Source of the DNA: a virus
IMG/VR virus record: IMGVR_UViG_3300047478_000286
Location: 1 to 56,124 of that record
Strand: one strand, 5' to 3'
Length of the DNA: 56,124 bases
Below are positions 1,566 to 56,055 of this stretch, piece after piece; position 1 is the stretch's first letter, and each line of letters starts with the position of its first letter. The notes below the pieces were generated by a model. That model had not been told where the DNA came from. It did no database searches and was given only the letters and a program-made list of their open reading frames with translations. Position numbers and translations under genes: made by a program.

Positions 1566-3215
1566 ATGTCACTGAGGATAAATAATAGAGCCTCAAGACA
1601 AAATACACTTGCTGGGTATATAAAAGCAGGTGCGAACACAGATGCCCAAAAAACAGTATTAAGCAAAGTATTTACCCCCGTTTCTGCTGTAGGTGTCACG
1701 CTAGAAGCGCAGTCCTCAACAGTAAGCAGCACAAGCGCAACGGCGAATGCGCAAATACGCTTAAATTCAACGCCCACAGCTTTAAATCAAACTAACTTAA
1801 CGCTCACTACTGGGTTAAATTTAAACGCAGCTAGCGCGACTGTATCAAGCTCAAATTCTGGCTTAACAACGTCAATAAGGCTAACCAGCTCAACAGCGGC
1901 TGAAAGCTCTAGTTTGGCGAATTTATCAGTAGCTGGCGGCCTTTCGTTTGAAGCAATAAGCGCAACAGTAAGCACAGCGACGACGGATTTATTTACCGCA
2001 ATTCAGCTTTCTGGCGACTCGTCCGCCACAAGTCAGACAACAATAACTAACCTAAACACTCAAATATTATTAAATATAAGAGAGCAAAGCGGTGACACGG
2101 GTTTTGTAAAGCCAAACTCAATAGAAGTGGGAACAACTGGCGTTGCTTTTTCAACAAGCGCAAACAATGTTCTCGAAGAAGATGGTGTGACGGCAGATGT
2201 GACGCTTAATAACGGCGGAAGGTCAAGACACATCAAATTTCCGCTAAGAGACCTTGCTATACCGAAAGGCTCAAAGATTACCGGCTTAGAGCTTAGCGTC
2301 TTCTGGGGCTCAACAAATAGCACAAGTGCTGGCAGCATGATTAACACCTCAATCATGAATGCCACAGTTGGCTCTAGCACTGTAAATGGCGCAACGTTTA
2401 TTTTTGGCTCAACAACTACCGGCGTATTTGAAGAACAAAGCACTGGACTAATTACCCCAAATGACCCAGGTAAATACAACTACCCAGGTGAATTAACAAG
2501 TGACGTAGCAACCGACAAAGCTATTTCGGTATATGTAACCAACTCTAGCGGCGTAAGTTTTAGAGTTTATAAGATTGACAATATCAAAGTCAGAGCAACT
2601 TATGAAAATTCTGGGCAGCAAAGTCAGTCTAACCTTTTAACAGCTATAACATTTGCCGCAAACTCTGTTGCTGAGAGCTTAACGACCGCTGAAATACTTG
2701 TTCCAAGCCAGCAAGAGTTGTCCGTAACTTCGGGCGCAACAAGCTCCACAAATGCCAACGTCAGCACAGATATAACATTACAAGCAAATACCAATGCTGT
2801 TAGCTCAAGCTCTTCAAGCGTCCAAACGCAAATACTACTTGGCGGGTTGCAAACCTCTGCTTTAGCAACAACTTCGCCAACATTGACGAGTGCGATAAGA
2901 TTAGTCGCATCAAGCGCGGCAACCAACTCTTCGGCAGCAAGCGCGCAAACCGGGATTAGTTTAAACTCCGCAACTGGTATAGTTAATGCTACAAGTTCTA
3001 ATCTAAGCACCGGAATATTGCTAAATGCGCAAGGTCAAAGCTTGCAAACGAATTTAACAGTGGCGGGTCTTTTCACAAGACAATCCATAAACTTTACAAA
3101 CGGTTTTGTGGTGTTCCCCGACAACACAAGCTACCCAATTACATTCCAAGAATATAGCAACATACTTGTTAACAGTGGCGATTATGCAAAAATAATCGTA
3201 GAAGGTCGTCTATGA
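1566..3215 (+). CDS. Repeat-rich fibre-like structural protein
   Basis: 549 residues, dominated by Ser, Thr, Ala, Asn and Leu. Residues about 45-165 and 350-500 consist of roughly 20-residue repeats of the type (I/L)xLxAxSATVSSxSxxLxT. Together they give about ten copies, compatible with a beta-solenoid or trimeric fibre shaft. Between the two blocks (about 170-345) is a non-repetitive domain that looks like a beta-sandwich. The C-terminus (about 500-549, FTNGFVVFPDNTSYPITF onward) is a separate small domain. It follows the two paralogous structural genes by three bases. A tail-fibre or surface role is inferred; no receptor-binding or enzymatic motif is visible. Confidence 0.72.
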   Translation: MSLRINNRASRQNTLAGYIKAGANTDAQKTVLSKVFTPVSAVGVTLEAQSSTVSSTSATANAQIRLNSTPTALNQTNLTLTTGLNLNAASATVSSSNSGLTTSIRLTSSTAAESSSLANLSVAGGLSFEAISATVSTATTDLFTAIQLSGDSSATSQTTITNLNTQILLNIREQSGDTGFVKPNSIEVGTTGVAFSTSANNVLEEDGVTADVTLNNGGRSRHIKFPLRDLAIPKGSKITGLELSVFWGSTNSTSAGSMINTSIMNATVGSSTVNGATFIFGSTTTGVFEEQSTGLITPNDPGKYNYPGELTSDVATDKAISVYVTNSSGVSFRVYKIDNIKVRATYENSGQQSQSNLLTAITFAANSVAESLTTAEILVPSQQELSVTSGATSSTNANVSTDITLQANTNAVSSSSSSVQTQILLGGLQTSALATTSPTLTSAIRLVASSAATNSSAASAQTGISLNSATGIVNATSSNLSTGILLNAQGQSLQTNLTVAGLFTRQSINFTNGFVVFPDNTSYPITFQEYSNILVNSGDYAKIIVEGRL

Positions 3216-4212: not shown

Positions 4213-4233
4213 AAGTAAAAACTGACTTATAAT
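4213..4233 (+). promoter_or_regulatory. Dyad promoter/operator element, copy 1
   Basis: AAGTA-AAAACT-GACTT followed at once by ATAAT, giving TATAAT at 4228-4233. It lies 31 bases before the 4265 gene, where a transcription start would be expected. Confidence 0.65.
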
Positions 4234-12477: not shown

Positions 12478-12491
12478 GTAACCGATTACTA
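12476..12491. promoter_or_regulatory. Dyad element, copy 4
   Basis: AAGTA-ACCGAT-TACTA. The cobT TAA stop (12475-12477) overlaps it, and the minus-strand HNH gene ends inside it. It probably belonged to the cobS leader before the HNH gene arrived. Confidence 0.45.
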
Positions 12492-13316
12492 AAATAATTC
12501 CGTAATTTGCATGTTATAATTTTCATTAAGCTGTTTTACCTTTTCCAGGTTTTTGTGGAAATTATATATCTTACCAAGCTCATCTATTGATGCGTCATTT
12601 TTTAAGCAGTTGGCTCTTCTTGAGGTTATTAATATATTACCCTTTACATAACCAAGAGAATTGTCAATGCGGTCAACGCTAACTGAATTAGGTTTATTTG
12701 CGCCAACATTGAATTGTATTTTCATGCCTAAAATCGGGCATGTTTCTGGTATGTCAATATCACTCTCTGTTAGGTTGAAATCTAAACCTTTTTTTGCAGC
12801 TCTAGTTTTTAAGGCTCTTAATAGGTATCTTTTTATGTTATTTTGTTTTGATTTTAAGGTGGATTGGCATGAACACTTTTTGCATTTATGCAAAACCCCC
12901 CCAACATATCTTTCAGAAGGGGTAAATTCAGATAGCGGCTTTGTTATCCCGCATATTGCACAGGTTTTTATATGAGGGCTTTCTTTGAAAAATTTTTTAC
13001 TAATTTTGCCTTTAAAAGGTATGTCGTTCCTTTTAAGTATATTAAACACCGTTGACCAGCAAATGTTTTCAGAATTCATTATCTCAACAATTGGCGTATT
13101 GTTTTTGTATTTCTCAATTACCGCTTTTTGGTCGCACCTCTTATTTGGTTTTTTGATTGGGGCGTTTTTTATAGAAACACCCCCAGCTTTGAGAATTCTA
13201 TACGTTCCGGTATATGAAAGCTCGAATTTTTTACCTATTTCTTCTATTGTTAGGGATGTTTCTAAATACATTTTTATAACATCTTGCCTTTCCTCAATTG
13301 TCGTGTGCTTTCTCAT
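12489..13316 (-). CDS. HNH homing endonuclease
   Basis: 275 residues, the only convincing minus-strand gene in the window. Two helix-turn-helix-like segments (TIEEIGKKFELSYTGTYRIL and a second near 55-95) precede a zinc-finger-like CAICG...CKKC region. The endonuclease core follows, with CPILGMKI then SVDRIDNSLGYVKGNILITS and RRANCLKNDAS. Such genes are mobile and cut cognate DNA lacking the insertion. It separates the cobT-like and cobS-like partners, which normally cooperate, and runs against all neighbours. Both support recent insertion. The exact target site is unknown. Confidence 0.85.
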   Translation of the reverse strand: MRKHTTIEERQDVIKMYLETSLTIEEIGKKFELSYTGTYRILKAGGVSIKNAPIKKPNKRCDQKAVIEKYKNNTPIVEIMNSENICWSTVFNILKRNDIPFKGKISKKFFKESPHIKTCAICGITKPLSEFTPSERYVGGVLHKCKKCSCQSTLKSKQNNIKRYLLRALKTRAAKKGLDFNLTESDIDIPETCPILGMKIQFNVGANKPNSVSVDRIDNSLGYVKGNILITSRRANCLKNDASIDELGKIYNFHKNLEKVKQLNENYNMQITELF

Positions 13317-15332: not shown

Positions 15333-18300
15333 ATGAATTACTTTTACGTAGCCCGTTCTGACTTTTCTCTGGGGCAAAGTTTGCTGGGTCCAAAAAAGAT
15401 AGCTTATATAGCAAAGCGCGACAACGTTAAAACCGTTGCCTTGTGCGATACGATGACAATTTCCGGCATGACAGATTTTGTTTCCGCCTGTAACTCAGAA
15501 GGTATCAACTATATCATTGGCTGTAGGCTGTGCGTTGTTATGGACTTGGATTACAGAAAACCCAAACGCTCAGACTTGGCACTACCGAAACCCAATCCTG
15601 AATTCTACCCCAAAGTTTATGTAAAGAACGAGCAGGGCATGTTTGAGCTTATGCGCCTTCTTTCTTTAGCGAATAGCGATGAATCCGGCAGGTTTCATGA
15701 CAAAGCAAGAATCAATCTTAATGACCTGATTCAAGTCCTGAAAATTGGGAATCTGGCGTTCTCAACTGGGGATTTGGGTTCTGTTTTTATGGTAAGGGAA
15801 AAAGAATATAACTGGCAAACTATTATGAAATATATAGCCAGCGAAATTCCTCACGAGAATTTGTTTTGTGAGCTTTTTAACGCTGATAGCATACTCTATG
15901 CTAAGTATAATAAAAACGCGCTTGAGTGTGCTGTAGCTAACAATTTAAACATAATTACAAGCAACTTAACACTATACGATGAACAAGCGGACATGGTAGC
16001 TCTGGATGCGCTTTCTGCTATCGTTTCAAACAACAAAATCACAGACAGTTGGCGTAGTATTCAACAATTAAACTGCCTACATAGCAAATCCGACCCACAG
16101 ATGCACAAAGAATGTGGTGAGCTTTTTGCAAAACTTTGCGCAGACTACCCGCCATCGCTTGATTTAAGTTTGTCGAATCAAGCCTTGATAGACTCATGTA
16201 GCTACAAGTGGCAACAGCAACCAATATCTCTGCCAAAGATAGTCGCAGACGAAACAAAAGAGCTTGAAAGATTGGTGGTTGAGGGTTGGAAAAAAAGAAT
16301 CAAAAAACCAATTATGGGCTACAAGCCACCAGACGACCTGATTTACAAATACAAAGCAAGGTTACACTATGAACTTGGCACACTCAAGAAGCTTGGCTTT
16401 GAGCGTTACTTTATTCTAGTCAGCGATCTGGTCAGATGGTCAAAGCAAAATGGAATAATGGTAGGCCCTGCAAGGGGTAGTTGCGCTGGTTCTCTTGTTG
16501 CGTATCTGCTAGAAATTACAGACATTGACCCGATACGATTTAATCTTATTTTCGAACGTTTTATAAACCCTGAGCGACTAGATTTACCTGACGCTGACTT
16601 GGATTTTATGTCAACAAGACGAATGGAGGTAATTGACTATCTTATTGAAAAATATGGTAAAGAAAAAGTTGCAGGCATTTCAAACTATGGAACGCTAGCA
16701 TCAGCCTCAGCATTTAGAGATTGTGGCAGGGTTTTTAGTTTGACACCTGAGCAAATGGAGGCGACAAAATATGTCCCAAAAGAAAATGGAACGTCCTATG
16801 AATTAGAGGTCGCAGCGGAAGCTGTTCCCGAAATACAGGCGCTCAAAGAAGCGCACCCTAAAATATGGAGTATAGCTACGAAACTTGAGGGCGTTATGCG
16901 CTCACTAGGTAAACACGCAGCCGGAGTTGTTGTTGCGGACGAGCCTTTGGTAAATAGATGTGTTGTCGAATCGAGAGCTGGGGCACAGACGGTAAACTGG
17001 GACAGAATGAGTGTTGAAAGTTGGGGTTTGGTCAAGGTAGATATTTTAGGGCTAAACACATTAGATACTCTAAGAATAACCTTGGACTACATTAAAGAAA
17101 ACAGGGGTGAAGTTATTAATCTCTTGGACATACCATTGGGCGATGAAGAGACTATGGAAGCCTTTTCCAGAGCGCAAACAGTTGGTATTTTCCAATTGGA
17201 AAGTTCAAGTATGCGGTCAATCTTAAAGCGGCTAGCGAAGGGCGGCAGATTAACTTTTGACGATATATGCGCAACAACAAGTCTTAATCGCCCAGGCCCT
17301 CTTGAGTCTGGAATGTGCGAAGCTTACATTAAATGGCGACAAGGTATTGAAGACCCAGAGTATGCGCATCCAAGCATGATACCCGCGCTAGAATCAACTG
17401 GCGGAACTATGGTGTATCAAGAACAAACGATGCAAATAGTTAGAGACCTTGCCGGATTCTCGATGGCAGAAGCCGACCTTGTAAGAAAGGCGATTGGTAA
17501 AAAAGACCACGATAAAATGAAGAAAATCAAAGGCGGCTTCATTGAAGGTTGTATTAGAACCTCTCATATCACAGAAGCTCAGGCTGATAAGATATGGCAA
17601 GATATTGAAAAGAACGCCTCTTACCAGTTTAACTTAAGCCACGCCGTTAGCTATTCAGTTATTAGTTATTGGTGCGGTTATTTAAAAACACACTATGCGC
17701 CTGAATTCTTCGCAGCAACGCTAACAACGATTGACGATGAGGGTAAGCTGCAATCAATACTTTTTGACGCACAAAGGCATAAAATTAATGTAATGCCACC
17801 AGATATAAACATATCAAGTCACAAGTTTGTTATCCAGAAAAAAGATGAAGGTTATCAGCTTGTAGCTCCATTTAATAAACTTAAGGGTGTTTCCGACAAA
17901 ACAACGGCCGCAATTTTAGAGGCTAGAGAAAAAGTTGGTGGAAAGTTTAAAAGCATCAATCACTTACTGGAAAACGTGGCAAGAAGAAGTTGCAATGTAG
18001 GGCACGTTAAGGTCTTAGATACAGTTGGGGCTTTTGCGAATATAGAGCCTGGTCAATTACCAGTCAAACACCCAGATAGAATAAAAGACCAAATCGAGCT
18101 ACTGCCCGGTTTGATTAATGACTTGGTTAAGACAAGTAAAGTAACAAGTCTAAGTGACATAACTCTGCCAGCGAGTGCTCTGATAAGAGGTATCAGGAGT
18201 TGCGACAAATGCAGTTTAAAAGAATTGCAACATTGCATACCTGTCGCTGGCAACAAGATAACTTATATGGTAATTACTGACGCTCCAAACACTAGCGAAT

Positions 18301-18713
18301 CAAACGAAGGTAAAATGCTACAGGGCGATAGTTGCAATACACTTATCACGGCAATAAAAGACGCTGGCCTAAGAAAGACAAATGGTTATTTTACTTCGCT
18401 TGTAAAAGTAAAAAAGCCAAAAGAGCTAAAGATGTTTGCAAATGAAACTCTGATACCATGTGGAAAGCTTTTAAGCGAAGAGATAAAGATGGTAAACCCC
18501 GGAGTTATAGTCGCGCTAGGCGGCGCAGCGATTAGATACCTTTTGCCAGAACTAAAAGGCGGCTGGGAAGAGCTTGCTGGTAAGGTTTACTATTCCAAGA
18601 CGCTTGATTGCTCGGTTGTTTGCGGACCCAATCCTCAAATGGCGTTTTTCCGCGAAGAGATACCCGGCATATTGCAAAACGTTTTTGAAAAGGTATATGA
18701 AATGACAACTTAA
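15333..18713 (+). CDS. dnaE: DNA polymerase III alpha (DnaE-like) fused to a UDG-like domain
   Basis: 1126 residues. The N-terminal PHP-like domain has lost its metal histidines (VARSDFSLG where HxHS is usual). The palm has GPARGSCAGSLVAYLL, catalytic PDADLDF (about 420) and VKVDILGLNTL (about 565), with the fingers motif GKHAAGVVVADEP. The helix-hairpin-helix region follows (KLKGVSDKTTAAILEAR). Instead of OB and tau-binding domains, residues about 950-1120 resemble family-4 uracil-DNA glycosylase: SCDKCSL, TDAPNTSESNEGKMLQGD, then LIPCGKLLSEEIKMVNPG and VIVALGGAA. The glycosylase active-site motifs look altered (DAPN for EAPG; NP for HP). It is the replicative polymerase; the extra domain may sense uracil rather than excise it. 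Confidence 0.92.
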   Translation: MNYFYVARSDFSLGQSLLGPKKIAYIAKRDNVKTVALCDTMTISGMTDFVSACNSEGINYIIGCRLCVVMDLDYRKPKRSDLALPKPNPEFYPKVYVKNEQGMFELMRLLSLANSDESGRFHDKARINLNDLIQVLKIGNLAFSTGDLGSVFMVREKEYNWQTIMKYIASEIPHENLFCELFNADSILYAKYNKNALECAVANNLNIITSNLTLYDEQADMVALDALSAIVSNNKITDSWRSIQQLNCLHSKSDPQMHKECGELFAKLCADYPPSLDLSLSNQALIDSCSYKWQQQPISLPKIVADETKELERLVVEGWKKRIKKPIMGYKPPDDLIYKYKARLHYELGTLKKLGFERYFILVSDLVRWSKQNGIMVGPARGSCAGSLVAYLLEITDIDPIRFNLIFERFINPERLDLPDADLDFMSTRRMEVIDYLIEKYGKEKVAGISNYGTLASASAFRDCGRVFSLTPEQMEATKYVPKENGTSYELEVAAEAVPEIQALKEAHPKIWSIATKLEGVMRSLGKHAAGVVVADEPLVNRCVVESRAGAQTVNWDRMSVESWGLVKVDILGLNTLDTLRITLDYIKENRGEVINLLDIPLGDEETMEAFSRAQTVGIFQLESSSMRSILKRLAKGGRLTFDDICATTSLNRPGPLESGMCEAYIKWRQGIEDPEYAHPSMIPALESTGGTMVYQEQTMQIVRDLAGFSMAEADLVRKAIGKKDHDKMKKIKGGFIEGCIRTSHITEAQADKIWQDIEKNASYQFNLSHAVSYSVISYWCGYLKTHYAPEFFAATLTTIDDEGKLQSILFDAQRHKINVMPPDINISSHKFVIQKKDEGYQLVAPFNKLKGVSDKTTAAILEAREKVGGKFKSINHLLENVARRSCNVGHVKVLDTVGAFANIEPGQLPVKHPDRIKDQIELLPGLINDLVKTSKVTSLSDITLPASALIRGIRSCDKCSLKELQHCIPVAGNKITYMVITDAPNTSESNEGKMLQGDSCNTLITAIKDAGLRKTNGYFTSLVKVKKPKELKMFANETLIPCGKLLSEEIKMVNPGVIVALGGAAIRYLLPELKGGWEELAGKVYYSKTLDCSVVCGPNPQMAFFREEIPGILQNVFEKVYEMTT

Positions 18714-29251: not shown

Positions 29252-30178
29252 ATGACAAAGGCTGTTAAATATAATATAGAGATAGACTACTCGCGGGATA
29301 ATTTATTTGACGAACTTGGCTTGGTTAGGCTCAGAGAGTCATACATGATTCCGGAAGAGCAGTCACCACAAGAAAGGTATGCCTACGTTAGCGCGTTTTT
29401 TGCGTCAAGCCAAGCTCATGCTCAGAGGCTGTATAATTACGCTTCCAAACATTGGCTGTCGTATTCGACTCCAATATTGGCACATCATGAGAGTAAAAAA
29501 GGATTAGGGATAAGCTGTTATGTAAATTATCTTGAGGATAGCTCTCAAGGTTTGGTTGATAATCTGAGTTTGTCGAATTGGCTCTCAATGTATGGCGGTG
29601 GTGTTGGGGTGAATATAGGCATTCGTGGTGCTGATGGGAAATCTGTTGGTGTAATGCCACACATGAAGACTTATGATTCATGCTCTATGGCGTATAAACA
29701 AGGCTCAAGGCGAGGAAGTTACGCAGCTTACTTGGACATAAACCACCCGGATATTGTGCAATTCATCGAAATGAGAAAGCCCACTGGCGACCCTAACATG
29801 AGAACGCCGAACTTAAATCATGGTATAAATGTTTCCGATGAATTTATGGAGATTATCAAACGCTGCATGGAAGACCCAAACGCAAGTGACGATTGGAATT
29901 TGGTGCAGCCGCATAACGGCAAAATAACAGAAGTAGTTTCGGCAAAAGAATTGTGGCAAAAAATACTAGAAACAAGAATGCAGACAGGCGAGCCATACTT
30001 GTATTTCATTGATACCGTGAATAGAGCATTACCACAGTATCAAAAAGATGCGGGTTTGCGTGTTAATGGCAGCAATCTGTGTATTGAGCTTTGTGAAGCA
30101 ACGAGCGCAGAAAGAACGGCGGTTTGTTGCCTGTCTTCTGTGAATCTTGAATATTGGGAAGCGTGGAAAGATGCCTGA
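29252..30178 (+). CDS. nrdA: Ribonucleotide reductase alpha, N-terminal part (nrdA split)
   Basis: 308 residues. It lacks the ATP-cone and opens directly with the alpha-barrel lead-in. Active-site elements: GISCYVN (first redox Cys), NLCIELC (Asn-x-Cys-x-Glu of the radical site) and TAVCCLSSVNL (second redox Cys). It stops with TGA at 30176-30178, exactly where class I alpha chains continue with xxDVxxxLDNVLxxFI. That continuation is encoded at once in the +1 frame by the next gene. So nrdA is split, frameshifted or recoded (GCC TGA C) here. The frame and catalytic residues on both sides are intact. Confidence 0.92.
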   Translation: MTKAVKYNIEIDYSRDNLFDELGLVRLRESYMIPEEQSPQERYAYVSAFFASSQAHAQRLYNYASKHWLSYSTPILAHHESKKGLGISCYVNYLEDSSQGLVDNLSLSNWLSMYGGGVGVNIGIRGADGKSVGVMPHMKTYDSCSMAYKQGSRRGSYAAYLDINHPDIVQFIEMRKPTGDPNMRTPNLNHGINVSDEFMEIIKRCMEDPNASDDWNLVQPHNGKITEVVSAKELWQKILETRMQTGEPYLYFIDTVNRALPQYQKDAGLRVNGSNLCIELCEATSAERTAVCCLSSVNLEYWEAWKDA

Positions 30179-31043
30179 CGTTTTGGAAATGCTAGACAAT
30201 GTATTGGAATTTTTTATCACCAACGCCCCAGACACTATAGCAACCGCAAAGTATTCCGCATATAGGGAAAGGTCTGTTGGAATTGGGGCGTTGGGGTTTC
30301 ATGCTTTGTTGCAACAAAAAAGCATACCATTCGAAAGTGCTTTAGCCAAAAGCATTAATATGAAAATTTTCAAACACATACAGGCAAGCTTAGATGCTGC
30401 GAACCTTGCGTTAGCTGAAATTCGCGGTAGCTGCCCGGACGCGGAAGATTATGGCGTTAAAAAACGAAACACCCACACAATGGCAATAGCACCAAATGCG
30501 TCAACCTCAATTGTTATGGGGAACACAAGCCCAAGCATTGAGCCATTCGCAGCAAACTTTTATCGCCAAGATACAACTTCCGGAACTCACTTCAACAAAA
30601 ACAAATACCTAGAAGCGATAATTCTTGATAGGTCAAAGGATGAAAAAGAAGGGTTTTATGAAGAGATATGGTCTTCAATCGTCGCACATGAAGGTTCGGT
30701 GCAGCATATCGAATGGCTAGATGATTGGCAAAAAGATGTTTTCAAAACCGCAATGGAGATAGACCAGCGTTGGATTATTGACTTGGCGGCAGACAGGCAG
30801 CAGTTTGTAGACCAGTCTCAAAGTTTGAACATTTTCTTTGAGCCCGATTCAAGCGTTCAATATATACATGCGGTTCACTTTATGGCATGGGCGCGTGGGG
30901 TGAAGTCGCTGTATTATTGCCGCAGCAAGAAGTTGAGAAAAGGAACTGACAAGGTTGGTTTGAAAGTTAAAAGAATGAAAATCGAAGATGAAATTAACAT
31001 GGCAGAAATCGCACAAGGCGGTGGATGTTTGGCTTGCGAATAG
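30171..31043 (+). CDS. nrdA: Ribonucleotide reductase alpha, C-terminal part (nrdA split)
   Basis: 290 residues from ATG 30171, overlapping the N-terminal part by eight bases; a TTG at 30147 is an alternative start. It begins MPDVLEMLDNVLEFFI and carries AIAPNASTSIVMG with TSPSIEP (catalytic loop), SLYYCRSK (the tyrosine pair of the radical path) and the C-terminal redox pair in GGGCLACE. Together the halves give about 597 residues with a complete class I catalytic set. Reassembly of two chains is possible: split NrdA is known in Aeromonas phage Aeh1. So are ribosomal frameshift and sequencing error. nrdB follows after eight bases. Confidence 0.9.
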   Translation: MPDVLEMLDNVLEFFITNAPDTIATAKYSAYRERSVGIGALGFHALLQQKSIPFESALAKSINMKIFKHIQASLDAANLALAEIRGSCPDAEDYGVKKRNTHTMAIAPNASTSIVMGNTSPSIEPFAANFYRQDTTSGTHFNKNKYLEAIILDRSKDEKEGFYEEIWSSIVAHEGSVQHIEWLDDWQKDVFKTAMEIDQRWIIDLAADRQQFVDQSQSLNIFFEPDSSVQYIHAVHFMAWARGVKSLYYCRSKKLRKGTDKVGLKVKRMKIEDEINMAEIAQGGGCLACE

Positions 31044-43619: not shown

Positions 43620-44966
43620 ATGATGAAATTTTTGAAAGTGTTTTTGGCAGCTTATGTTGCTGTCATGTCTTTTGGTGCACATGCACACGGGACAAATAAC
43701 ATTAATTACCGCGAGTTTGACCATCGTTGCGTAAACACAGCATTGGGTGTAAATCGTAAAATGCTTTACTTCGGTGAGACTTGTGCTCCAGGTGAAACAG
43801 CTACGCACGTCCAATATGACCGGATGTTACCAACTGCGCCACCGCCTCCTCCACCACCTACACCACCAGCCCAAGTATTGCCGTTAACTTATTGCGCACA
43901 ACCGGCATACAACAAAGCGATTGTTCACGTTACAACCGCTGGTGCGATTCCTAACGACAACCTGAGTGATTCAGCAGCTATCCAGTCTGTTATTGACTCA
44001 ACTTCTGCAAACCTAACCACAGCGTTTATTCCGGCTGGAACGTGGAACATTGAACCAAACGTTGTAAAGTTAAAAACCAACACAACTTTAGTTCTTGACC
44101 CATTAGCAGTTATCAAAATGGCTCCTACTAGCGCAGGCAGCTACTCAGTGCTTGATGTTACTGGTGTTAATAACGTAAACGTTTCTGGTGGAACTATCGT
44201 GGGTGACCGTTTAGCTCACACTGGCACTACTGGCGAATGGGGTATGGGTTTCTATATCCGCAACAGCTCACAAATCAACATCGAAAACGTTGCGGTTAAA
44301 GACGCTTGGGGCGATGGTATCTATGTAGGTAACGTCTCTGCTAACGTTAAACTTTGTAAAGTTGTTGTAGATAACGCACGCCGTAATGGTTTGTCTATCA
44401 CCTCTGCTAACAACGTTTTTATTGACCAATCAATCTTCAAAAACACACACGGCACTTTGCCTCAGTCTGGTATTGGTTTAGAGCCTAATGTTAATGAAAC
44501 TGTTAGCAACGTAACCATCAAAAGCACAGAAATGCACGGCAACTACGCCTCTGGTTTCTACGCTGGTTGGGTTCAGTCTGCTACTGGTGCAAGCATCACT
44601 GGCGTTATTTTAGATGGCAACAACATCCATGACAATGGCTTAGATTTATCTACTTCATTTGCTTATGGCATTTTGTTAGACAAACAGGTTAACGCTGTTG
44701 TTAAAAACAACACAATCAAAGACAACAAAAATGCCGGTATCTATGTTGATAGCAACACCACTGGTTCACACATCTTTGGTAACACTTTAACAAACAATGG
44801 TGGTTTCGGTATTCCTTTGGATAACACCGTTTCCAACTCACTTATTGAAAACAACACCATTACAGGCCACGCAACTTGCGACATTATTAGCTGGTCGTCT
44901 GGGGCTGGTAACGTTTGGCGTGCAAACACTGTCGTTAAACCTTGCGGCACTGTTCAACAACCTTAA
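43620..44966 (+). CDS. Secreted right-handed beta-helix protein
   Basis: 448 residues. Signal peptide MMKFLKVFLAAYVAVMSFGAHAHG, cleavage about residue 23. A small Cys-containing domain (about 24-70) and a proline run (PPPPPPPTPP) lead to a parallel beta-helix (about 100-440). The helix has DNLSDSAAIQSVID, NVNVSGGTIVGD, IENVAVKDAWGDGIYVGNV, then ILDGNNIHDNG and NNTIKDNKNAGIYVD repeats, as in pectate-lyase-like and depolymerase folds. A signal peptide means export from the infected cell rather than virion assembly. Polysaccharide degradation or binding is inferred. Codon use looks smoother and less AT-biased than neighbours. Confidence 0.82.
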   Translation: MMKFLKVFLAAYVAVMSFGAHAHGTNNINYREFDHRCVNTALGVNRKMLYFGETCAPGETATHVQYDRMLPTAPPPPPPPTPPAQVLPLTYCAQPAYNKAIVHVTTAGAIPNDNLSDSAAIQSVIDSTSANLTTAFIPAGTWNIEPNVVKLKTNTTLVLDPLAVIKMAPTSAGSYSVLDVTGVNNVNVSGGTIVGDRLAHTGTTGEWGMGFYIRNSSQINIENVAVKDAWGDGIYVGNVSANVKLCKVVVDNARRNGLSITSANNVFIDQSIFKNTHGTLPQSGIGLEPNVNETVSNVTIKSTEMHGNYASGFYAGWVQSATGASITGVILDGNNIHDNGLDLSTSFAYGILLDKQVNAVVKNNTIKDNKNAGIYVDSNTTGSHIFGNTLTNNGGFGIPLDNTVSNSLIENNTITGHATCDIISWSSGAGNVWRANTVVKPCGTVQQP

Positions 44967-44993
44967 TTCCTGAATAGATTCATTTAAGCAAAA

Positions 44994-45026
44994 GGCGTGT
45001 TAAGTGTTTGATTTGCTTAACACGCC
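44994..45026 (+). repeat. Perfect 11-bp hairpin after the beta-helix gene
   Basis: GGCGTGTTAAG (44994-45004) pairs with CTTAACACGCC (45016-45026), loop TGTTTGATTTG. No T-run follows on the + strand; it may terminate, or protect the 3' end of the mRNA. Confidence 0.75.
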
Positions 45027-45034
45027 AATGTTGA

Positions 45035-45080
45035 TGAATAGATTCCTGAATAGATTCGTGAATAGGTTCACGAATAGCTT
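45035..45080. repeat. 12-bp periodic repeat array with embedded hairpin
   Basis: TGAATAGATTC-like units start at 45035, 45047, 45059 and 45071, exactly 12 bases apart (the last two diverged), with another unit at 44971. Within the array ATTCGTGAA (45054-45062) and TTCACGAAT (45067-45075) form a perfect 9-bp dyad with TAGG between. It lies 30 bases before the DUF1996-like gene, a plausible operator. Confidence 0.8.
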
Positions 45081-45109: not shown

Positions 45110-46207
45110 ATGAAAAAAATTTTTACACTAATCGCGTTGGTTATGCTTTCAAACATGGCGCAAGCTGCGTTCGAAGCTGGCAACGTTCCATCACCAAAAA
45201 TCGCTGCACCAGCGGGCCCACGCTTCCCTGGTTCACGCATTAAACTTAACGCTGCTTTACCTGACTATGACTTTGCTGAAGGCAAGCAACGTTTAGGCTG
45301 CTTGTGGTCACTTGCACAGAAAGTAGACCCCATAGTTGAACCTAACGTATTCCCTAGTAACCATTTACATGATTTTTATGGCAACCCTACTATAAATCAA
45401 TTCAGCACTGCCGCTTCTTTAGCTTTACCTACTGCTGGCTCTAGCTGCTCAGGTGGTAATGAATATCAGTCGTCTTTTTGGTTCCCTTCAATAGTTGACA
45501 CTAATGATGTCGTAACGCCTGCTTCTGGCTCAACTCCTGCTAAATATCGTTACGTTGGAACTAGCGGCGCTTTGGTATACTACGCAAGTGCTGTAGGTTT
45601 AGAAGGTCGCAAAGTGCAGCCTATCCCATTTGGTTTGAAAATGGTTATCGGCAAAATGCACAACACTAACCCAGCTGAAAACCTGTCTGACTGGTCTTGC
45701 TCTAACGCAACAGGCACGCCCTTTACACGCGTTGGCGCTCAAAAGACTATTCCAACTTGCGTTTATGGCGAAAAGTTGCGTGAATTATTACGTTTTAACC
45801 AGTGTTTGAAGTTGAAGCCAAACGGTCAGCCTTACTTGGATACCGACGCTGTTAACTTCCCCGCTAACGACCACCGTAGTCATTTAGTGCCTACTAGAAC
45901 TGGCAATTGGCAAACTAACCCTGCACAAAACGAGTGTCCTAGTGGTCACATGCTGATTCCACAAGTAACTTTGATTCGTGACACTGTTGTTCCTGCTGGT
46001 AAAACAACAGCCGGTTATCGCTTAGTAACTGACAATAGCAACATGAGCAACCCAGGTGGAACCGCCCATGCCGACTATTTCATGGCGATGAAAGCCAAGT
46101 GGATGAACATGATCGTTGAGAACTGCATCAACGACCACAAGAACTGCGGCATCGGTCTGATGGGTATTGACCCTGCTGATGGTATCAGTAAAGCTCTGAT
46201 TCAATAA
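45110..46207 (+). CDS. Secreted DUF1996-like protein
   Basis: 365 residues. Signal peptide MKKIFTLIALVMLSNMAQA (cleavage about 19). The mature chain has the DUF1996 signature SNHLHDFYGNPT (about 80-91), then SCSGGNEYQSSFWFPS, LVYYAS, QPIPFGLKMVIG, and a C-terminal HADYFMAMKAKWM. DUF1996 is known mainly from fungi and actinobacteria, in secreted proteins of unknown activity. Here it is paired with a secreted beta-helix protein and shares its less AT-biased codon use. Likely acts on extracellular or envelope material; activity unknown. Confidence 0.78.
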   Translation: MKKIFTLIALVMLSNMAQAAFEAGNVPSPKIAAPAGPRFPGSRIKLNAALPDYDFAEGKQRLGCLWSLAQKVDPIVEPNVFPSNHLHDFYGNPTINQFSTAASLALPTAGSSCSGGNEYQSSFWFPSIVDTNDVVTPASGSTPAKYRYVGTSGALVYYASAVGLEGRKVQPIPFGLKMVIGKMHNTNPAENLSDWSCSNATGTPFTRVGAQKTIPTCVYGEKLRELLRFNQCLKLKPNGQPYLDTDAVNFPANDHRSHLVPTRTGNWQTNPAQNECPSGHMLIPQVTLIRDTVVPAGKTTAGYRLVTDNSNMSNPGGTAHADYFMAMKAKWMNMIVENCINDHKNCGIGLMGIDPADGISKALIQ

Positions 46208-54689: not shown

Positions 54690-54932
54690 ATGTCAAAACA
54701 TCACAAAGAAATGTATACCGAAATGGAAGCCCTTGAAGAGCGTTGCGCAAAAGAACCCAACAAAGCCTCGCCTAAAAAACACACAAACAAGGCGCTTTTT
54801 ATAGTGCGGGAGCTTTTGATAGTGTTGTTGGCTTTACTGATTGTAGTCGCAATTTTCATTAAACCTGTGCTTTTGCTTCATTTTGTAGGTTGCTATATTA
54901 TTTTAAGCACTTTAAGCAACGAAAATAAGTAA
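54690..54932 (+). CDS. Membrane protein (80 aa)
   Basis: 80 residues. A charged N-terminal helix (EMYTEMEALEERCAKEPNK) then a hydrophobic region (about 33-72, two passes likely). Weak ribosome binding site (AGGTAATCGCC). Last gene before the 811-base non-coding region. Confidence 0.5.
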   Translation: MSKHHKEMYTEMEALEERCAKEPNKASPKKHTNKALFIVRELLIVLLALLIVVAIFIKPVLLLHFVGCYIILSTLSNENK

Positions 54933-55146
54933 GCGCACACATATTGCTAATAAACTTTAAAAACGTCACTACGAGCTTAAAAACGCGCTTAAATTGCATG
55001 TTTTCAATTTATTCTAAGCGCTATTTACAAATTCCAGCAGAGACGGCTTAAATTTTAACCGTTTCTTGCCTATGTTTTGATTTAAGACTCAGCTAAAATG
55101 TTTGTTAAAATAAGTTTTTTTAAAAAACTATGTAACAATACTTTTG
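54933..55146. other. AT-rich non-coding stretch upstream of the structured RNA
   Basis: No credible frame. It holds AGTTTTTT-T-AAAAAACT, a perfect eight-base dyad at 55113-55129, and CTTAAAAACGCGCTTAAATT (54976-54995), similar to sequence at 41775-41800. It could contain the promoter of the RNA below or origin-like sequence; neither is provable by eye. Confidence 0.5.
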
Positions 55147-55530
55147 CTTTCTTGTTTTAAGAAAGCCGGTTCAGCATAACGGAGGGACGATACCGCTGGC
55201 GACTGAACTGGAAGTGCCACAAGTGAGACTCAAGGTGGCAACGTGGGCTTGATAATTTTGCTAGAGCGTGAGGGGTTTTAACCGTTTTCCGGTTAACGTA
55301 AGTCTGGCATTCCTCATTTTCAAAGCATGGCGGTTTTACCGTTACTGATTTTAGAAAATAGAGTTAAGGCGAATAGGTAAAAAAACAAGTAAGTTTTATT
55401 AAGAGTTTTCTCTTTTTTATTTGTTTTCCCTATGGGTCTTAACTTGTCCTATTTTCTAGCATGTCTTTTTTAAAAGCTATTTTTAAATTTATTTAATGTT
55501 TCGCAAGGCCCTTAATTGGGCTTTTTTGTT
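55147..55530 (+). ncRNA. Putative large structured RNA, terminator-ended
   Basis: Nested complementary segments. CTTTCTT/AAGAAAG (55147-55165). CCGGTTCAG (55166-55174) with CTGAACTGG (55203-55211). TGCCAC (55215-55220) with GTGGCA (55235-55240). TGAGG/CCTCA (55269-55273, 55312-55316) enclosing TTAACCG/CGGTTAA (55278-55296). A 107-base arm with TAGAAAATAG+AGTTAAG (55352-55368) opposite CTTAACT (55438-55444) and CTATTTTCTA (55449-55458), enclosing ATAGG/CCTAT, AAAACAA/TTGTTTT and AAGAG/CTCTT. A terminator ends it (55505-55530). Base composition is less AT-rich than the flanks in 55165-55300. It matches no RNA class I recognise; tRNA, tmRNA, 6S and RNase P are not apparent. Confidence 0.6.
55505..55528 (+). 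terminator. Rho-independent terminator of the putative RNA
   Basis: AAGGCCC (55505-55511), loop TTAATT, GGGCTTT (55518-55524) with one G-T pair, then TTT. Confidence 0.8.
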
Positions 55531-55743
55531 TCTTAAGCTCTAAAAAAATTGCGCCGCGCAAAGCTAAACTTTTTTAAACAAAACCTACATAGCAGATTCA
55601 AACAAACCCGGTTAATAGCTGTTGTCGTTTAGCTTGTGGAACAAATAAGCTTTTCTCAGGCTTACCCGTTGCAGCCAATGCTTGAGTTAGCCATTGACTA
55701 TGTTATATTTTCTTAACTTTAATTAACAAATGCCGGAACTAAT

Positions 55744-56055
55744 ATGAAAACCCAACAAGACAACTACAACGCAAGCTGTATAAAAATATTAAAGCCAGAA
55801 GAAGCCCAACAAAAATTCGGCTGGTTAATGGCACAAGAGCTGGCACAAAAATATTCAAAACCTTTAGAGTTCATTGAGCGTGGCATTGAGGCTTGTCGAA
55901 GGTCTTCCACTGCCATTGAGTTTTTTATTGCGCGTTACTTGGAAAAACAAGAAACACCACTACCACGTAATGAATTGTTAGAAGTGGCTTATTTAGAAGT
56001 CATGGCGGAACACAGAGAAGCGTTCCAAAAGTCAGGCCCAAAACGCTTAAATTAA
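55744..56055 (+). CDS. Hypothetical protein (103 aa)
   Basis: 103 residues, soluble, highly charged, helical throughout (EEAQQKFGWLMAQELAQKYS, RSSTAIEFFIARYLEKQE). No recognised motif; the helical make-up is compatible with a small regulator or RNA-binding protein. Preceded by TGCCGGAACTAAT (weak ribosome binding site) and by the non-coding region with the putative RNA, so it may be transcribed separately. Confidence 0.6.
   Translation: MKTQQDNYNASCIKILKPEEAQQKFGWLMAQELAQKYSKPLEFIERGIEACRRSSTAIEFFIARYLEKQETPLPRNELLEVAYLEVMAEHREAFQKSGPKRLN

Follow-up and report, generated by a model that had tools for sequence, protein, structure and literature searches.

What does a stretch of 811 nt without any gene do in the genome of a phage? 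The question is raised by the window analysed here, which is the whole IMG/VR virus record IMGVR_UViG_3300047478_000286 (56,124 nt) and whose longest ORF-free region lies at 54933-55743, with no strand assigned to it. We think that a structured non-coding transcript is the best reading of this gap, with a probability of about one half.

The gap and its genomic setting

The gap is bounded by two small plus-strand genes. The upstream one (54690-54932) encodes 80 aa with a hydrophobic stretch and belongs to no family, and the downstream one (55744-56055) encodes 103 aa that match phrog_18265, of unknown function (E 1.9e-25). Homologues of phrog_18265 in Vibrio, Shewanella and Escherichia phages have no upstream gap of comparable size, except for one of 594 nt in TH18. 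Inside the gap no ORF exceeds 35 aa on the plus strand or 33 aa on the minus strand, and the longest stop-free readings are 38 aa on plus and 68 aa on minus, where no start codon comes early in the reading, which bears out the claim of the first-pass annotation that these 811 bases lack a credible frame. Possible small toxin ORFs at 55098, 55268 and, on the minus strand, 55598 were discarded, being just 20-26 aa long and without an evident ribosome-binding site; codon scores of the tiny ORFs in the gap were uninformative. No coding potential was found in the gap, as is proper for a structured non-coding RNA. If ORFs of 45 aa or more count as coding, whichever strand they lie on, only three gaps of the window are longer than 200 nt (219, 272 and 811 nt). 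The genome had been described as otherwise packed without gaps; the outstanding size of this one stands (811 nt vs 272 nt for the next), but gaps of 219-401 nt occur too. The GC content peaks at 0.53 in 55150-55249 and is as low as 0.23 in 55050-55149 and 0.24 in 55400-55499, in agreement with the earlier remark that 55165-55300 is less AT-rich than its surroundings. On the plus strand, taken as the transcribed one, G prevails over C in this GC-rich core.

The recognised genes of the window are nearly all on the plus strand. They include a replication block (DnaB-like helicase, NAD-dependent ligase, SSB, RecA-like and SbcC-like proteins, ribonucleotide reductase, thymidylate synthase and a DnaE-type polymerase at 15333-18713) that is largely collinear with that of Nickievirus phiK7B1 and of several IMG/VR contigs. 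The polymerase also matches those of Rhizobium RHEph10-like phages, Stenotrophomonas phage ANB28 and the phage-plasmid SSU5; its identity to relatives is ~36-47% over the full length and ~52% in the best partial match, the highest value once an identical 7.8-kb fragment is set aside. Judged by these genes, the phage is SSU5/Nickievirus/RHEph10-like and, because its identity to relatives is low, of an unsampled genus. By comparison with these relatives, the window would cover about half of a genome of 100-120 kb. Beyond 33 kb the majority of its genes have no homologue in relatives, and the genes around the gap show neither family matches nor homologues there. No tRNA genes were found in the 56-kb window, and none of the scanned proteins was recognised as a partition protein.

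Several other features of the record deserve mention. The large subunit of ribonucleotide reductase is spread over two overlapping frames, 29252-30178 (308 aa) and 30147-31043 (298 aa), of which the former matches just the middle part of the large-subunit profile; a frameshift or a split gene is possible. A minus-strand gene of the endonuclease VII/HNH type with DNA-binding parts (12489-13316), placed between two plus-strand genes, is probably a free-standing homing endonuclease. Moreover, a 17-nt palindrome, AAGTA-N7-ACTTA, is repeated in the window, mostly between genes and near their starts, with 22 matches to AAGTAAATAATTACTTA at up to three mismatches where 0.6 are expected. Exact half-sites occur at 4213, 4976, 6670, 18718, 20330, 23145, 32022, 36403, 37512, 40709, 43554, 47528 and 52363, and the copy at 54927-54943, with one mismatch, lacks significance when taken alone. 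The palindrome is enriched in SSU5, RHph_X66 and the relatives G003, G007, G018 and G022; enrichment was not found in phiK7B1, ANB28, G013, G031 and G043. These palindromes probably serve as the operators of a regulator or repressor specific to the lineage, for which the stoperators of mycobacteriophage L5 offer a comparison.

Predicted fold and transcription signals

The best-supported extent of the candidate RNA is 55147-55531 on the plus strand. The predicted fold of 55147-55530 has -112.4 kcal/mol and a z of -3.82, which none of 100 dinucleotide shuffles equalled. It is formed by the hairpins H1 (55147-55165, CTTTCTTG/TAAGAAAG), H2 (55166-55211, CCGGTTCAG/CTGAACTGG with an inner stem) and H3 (55215-55240, TGCCAC/GTGGCA), the arm H4 (55259-55327, GTGAGG/CCTCAT with inner TTAACCG/CGGTTAA), the hairpin H5 (55328-55344, TGGCGGT/ACCGTTA) and H6 (55351-55459), a long, AT-rich and imperfect hairpin of 109 nt that corresponds to the 107-base arm noticed earlier, all on the plus strand. 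The excess stability is unevenly distributed among these elements. The H6 segment alone (55344-55462) gives z -5.46, with 0 of 200 shuffles as good, and 55351-55500 ranks second among the 1244 strand-windows of a scan of the whole window (150 nt, both strands). At the 5' side, z is -3.16 for H1 with H2 and -3.22 for H2 with H3; H4 with H5 gives -2.50. The middle, 55200-55345, is no better than its shuffles (z +0.28), 55147-55346 gives z -1.11, and the scan windows that begin at 55171 and 55261 do not stand out. Across the gap, z is -5.28 on the plus strand vs -2.54 on the minus strand. The excess stability thus lies in H6 and the 5' hairpins, and the large, constrained multi-stem RNA proposed for 55147-55530 is demonstrated for those parts only. 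The multi-stem part ahead of H6 is plausible as real structure because it forms a GC-rich island (0.53) within flanks of 0.23-0.24, a point that its stability does not prove.

The same scan gave an observation elsewhere in the record: the most over-stable 150-nt window is 44911-45060 (z -6.0 on the plus strand, -4.2 on the minus strand), between the genes 43620-44966 and 45110-46207.

The folded region was said to end in a good terminator, and one is indeed found at 55505-55524: H7, an intrinsic plus-strand terminator of seven pairs (AAGGCCC-TTAATT-GGGCTTT-TTTG) that extends with its T-run to 55530. A second intrinsic terminator, overlooked in the first-pass annotation, faces it on the minus strand (55561-55549, TTGCGCGGCGCAA followed by TTTTTTT), and this is the sole minus-strand terminator site with an unbroken run of seven T in the last 20 kb. 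Terminator-like sites are somewhat frequent in that 20-kb scan (30 vs 19 expected), and the two of the gap belong to the few whose T-run is clean. The minus-strand terminator suggests a short leftward transcript of ~160 nt as a possibility; it would span 55545-55705, where the minus-strand fold is weak (z -1.46, 19 of 200 shuffles as good). For the plus-strand RNA, a weak promoter candidate with an extended -10 is present at 55082-55111 (TTAAGA-18-TAAAAT, TGTTAAAAT), from which we infer a start at ~55118. Matches of this kind occur at chance frequency (43 in 20 kb vs 46 in shuffles), and the palindromic operator is absent from this site. Another promoter-like site, TTGAGT-16-TATATT with TG, precedes the downstream gene at 55682-55709 on the plus strand.

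Known phage RNAs and related phages

No relative of the candidate RNA was found. Nothing in Rfam matched at the gathering score, and relaxing the limit to E<=10 added chance-level matches only (best E 0.26, a plant miRNA model). Searches of the gap by blastn found no homologue in phages and plasmids, and those of 55140-55540 in 47 records of relatives returned merely chance pieces of 16-37 nt. Words of 16-21 nt from the core had 0 to 5 matches each in IMG/VR and GTDB contigs, with no likeness outside the word, and the seven of the second batch sit in long open frames. Close relatives were not found through the neighbouring proteins and the polymerase either.

The strongest precedent for reading the gap as a phage RNA of ~400 nt is the most abundant transcript of ICP1, an ORF-less RNA of ~800 nt from the 1-kb space between gp139 and gp140 (PMC7567579). 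Both are long non-coding stretches of a large gammaproteobacterial phage, terminator-ended and away from tRNAs; the ICP1 RNA differs in its ~800 nt and in its demonstration by RNA-seq, and it has no sequence similarity to the window. GOLLD and ROOL are likewise large phage RNAs of unknown function, the one ornate and the other structured. Neither gave an Rfam match at the gathering score or at E<=10, and both assignments were rejected. GOLLD RNAs are in many cases longer than 800 nt and close to tRNAs, and ROOL is often near tRNA islands (PMC12286853), whereas the 56-kb window has no tRNA and the gap no such neighbours; for GOLLD this location is a frequent feature and not a strict criterion. 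In extrachromosomal mycobacteriophages, lysogens need a non-coding RNA locus of some 400-500 nt that adjoins parABS (PMC7157519); the length is similar to that of the candidate RNA, but no partition system was recognised among the scanned proteins of the window. A tmRNA or tmRNA-like RNA was rejected as well, with no tag-like frame in the gap and model R1 at noise. The SSU5-type RNA resembles the candidate as a long, ORF-free and structured RNA of a related lineage, but the element is absent from the window by model R1, whose best score there is 13.5 bits vs 131-137 for members.

That element is a side finding in its own right. The structured region of 0.9 kb without an ORF in SSU5 (z -10.4) is a further precedent for the candidate RNA. 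This SSU5 region (JQ965645, 41.76-42.6 kb) opens with a conserved element of 160 nt, which is found in the 5' part of long RNAs that lack an ORF, frequently next to tRNAs. Its loci include L170:1808-1965 (SSU5), L204:661-820 (HK620), L205-L209, L214-L219 and, on the minus strand, L181:5068-5226 (G028). A 146-nt query from the SSU5 element has blastn matches in 493 phage records of enterobacterial phages, including Felixounavirus, Suspvirus, Mooglevirus, Kuttervirus, Taipeivirus, Lederbergvirus HK620, Klebsiella siphophages and SSU5-like phages, and the HK620 version has matches in 755 of 5426 E. coli genomes, the majority of them on plasmids. A frame of ten codons, AN(D/E)..LAVA-stop, with the form of a tmRNA tag is present in 13 of the 13 loci read. 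Its variable columns number 2/3/8 by codon position, the tags of Sa157lw and Vi01 differ by synonymous codons, and a hairpin with compensatory changes follows the frame. Rfam gives the element sub-threshold permuted-tmRNA/tmRNA matches only, ARAGORN found no tmRNA in the loci scanned, and no full tRNA-like domain was identified in the element, which is mostly unannotated among the matches listed. In a survey of 2014, mycobacteriophages and Bacillus phage G are the only phages listed with ssrA (PMC4131195), and one genome report mentioned ssrA in Felix O1 (PMC4392139). The element looks like a widespread phage tmRNA-like RNA, and this finding looks stronger than that of the candidate RNA in the gap.

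Structured ORF-free stretches are common in the lineage: among some 55 gaps of 230 nt or longer, the z of the sense strand falls below -4 in about 10. One relative, G032, carries an ORF-free, strongly folded stretch at 1960-2300 on the minus strand (z -4.75) with a terminator-like hairpin and T-run at its end, 38.7 kb downstream of the polymerase start, vs 39.6 kb for the gap of the window. This positional match is a hint, and the synteny may be accidental because the two stretches share no sequence and similarly placed gaps of other relatives are unstructured (G003, G022, W02, W03 and G012, at 37.6-41.2 kb, fold about as shuffled sequence). No homologue of the G032 stretch was found in phages. 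Its contig (L093) shows an RNA-like structured stretch at 500-2460 and 2500-2660, minus strand, with a hairpin of ~15 bp and a terminator; many CCATGG palindromes (CCATGGTAATTCCATGG) come after the structured stretch and purine-rich repeats (AGTAAGAGATAGGTA) before it. In two GC-rich phages, AT-rich ORF-free stretches are extremely foldable on both strands (G025:68069-68612, z -8.5/-8.1; G003:103797-104057, z -7.2/-6.0) and are candidates for origins or palindromic regulatory DNA. In L067, a contig of L096/G042, the polymerase match is interrupted by long extra sequence, with 681 residues spread over 3.3 kb, which suggests an intein or intron in this DnaE; an ORF-free stretch of 424 nt is located within the gene.

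Weighing the explanations

We give even odds to the proposal that the gap encodes a discrete phage structured RNA of ~400 nt, acting as RNA in infection or lysogeny. The ORF-free gap, the terminator, the GC-rich core and the excess stability of the arm and the first hairpins are observed, and around them the gap would be a small intergenic transcription unit of an SSU5/Nickievirus/RHEph10-like phage, producing a single non-coding RNA of ~385-415 nt. Transcription would start near 55118 at the putative promoter, pass through the five small hairpins with the GC-rich core and then the 109-nt hairpin, and stop at the terminator 55505-55530. The RNA might act in trans as a stable folded molecule during infection, like the ICP1 ORF-less transcript, GOLLD and ROOL, and H6 could be a double-stranded element of the RNase III type that sets off or protects the core. 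We counted in favour of a discrete RNA the length of the ORF-free stretch in a tightly packed genome, the GC-rich core, a fold that outdoes all shuffles and is stronger on the plus strand, the terminator right behind the fold and the opposite one that insulates it from the right, and against it the lack of a homologue and hence of covariation, a middle no stabler than shuffles and a promoter match at chance level. A bolder version, in which the gap encodes a phage structured RNA of a new class, distinct from GOLLD and ROOL and seen here for the first time, with a GC-rich multi-hairpin core and a double-stranded arm and working as RNA in infection or prophage maintenance, is tentative and in our opinion rather unlikely, and a single known sequence does not allow a class to be defined from the candidate.

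The facing terminators at 55505-55530 (plus) and 55561-55549 (minus), together with the promoter-like site before the next gene, would also fit an ordinary transcription-control spacer at an operon boundary with no working RNA. Most of the excess stability belongs to one AT-rich hairpin, and another intergenic region has a comparable z (-6.0 at 44911-45060). However, the gap is three times the next one by the same measure, and a GC-rich core with its own hairpins is superfluous for termination; we regard such a spacer as a rather unlikely account. More doubtful still is a replication origin or maintenance locus whose RNA would prime or control replication of the plasmid kind, after the example of extrachromosomal mycobacteriophages. 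There are known prophage replicons based on RNA (PMC7157519), the phage-plasmid SSU5 is part of the lineage, the repeated palindromic sites look like operators of temperate phages, and the region is AT-rich with a long internal palindrome; but iterons, a DnaA-box cluster (two weak one-mismatch sites among 158 in the window) and a GC-skew switch are missing at the gap, signs that an RNA-primed origin would not need. The scanned proteins include no recognised partition gene, and the genome encodes a DnaE-type polymerase and a DnaB helicase of its own. The least probable explanation is decay, i.e., remnants of lost genes in a fast-changing accessory block. The surrounding genes have neither family matches nor homologues in relatives, and gene turnover is rapid here; but no trace of a former gene can be seen, the stop-free readings being short, and a strand-biased fold followed by a terminator is unexpected in junk DNA.

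Returning to the structured non-coding transcript, as it stands the gap holds an orphan candidate RNA. If transcribed, it would join GOLLD, ROOL and the ICP1 RNA in the small set of long phage RNAs that are unrelated to each other and have no known function, and it would point to a repeated origin of such RNAs in separate phage lineages.
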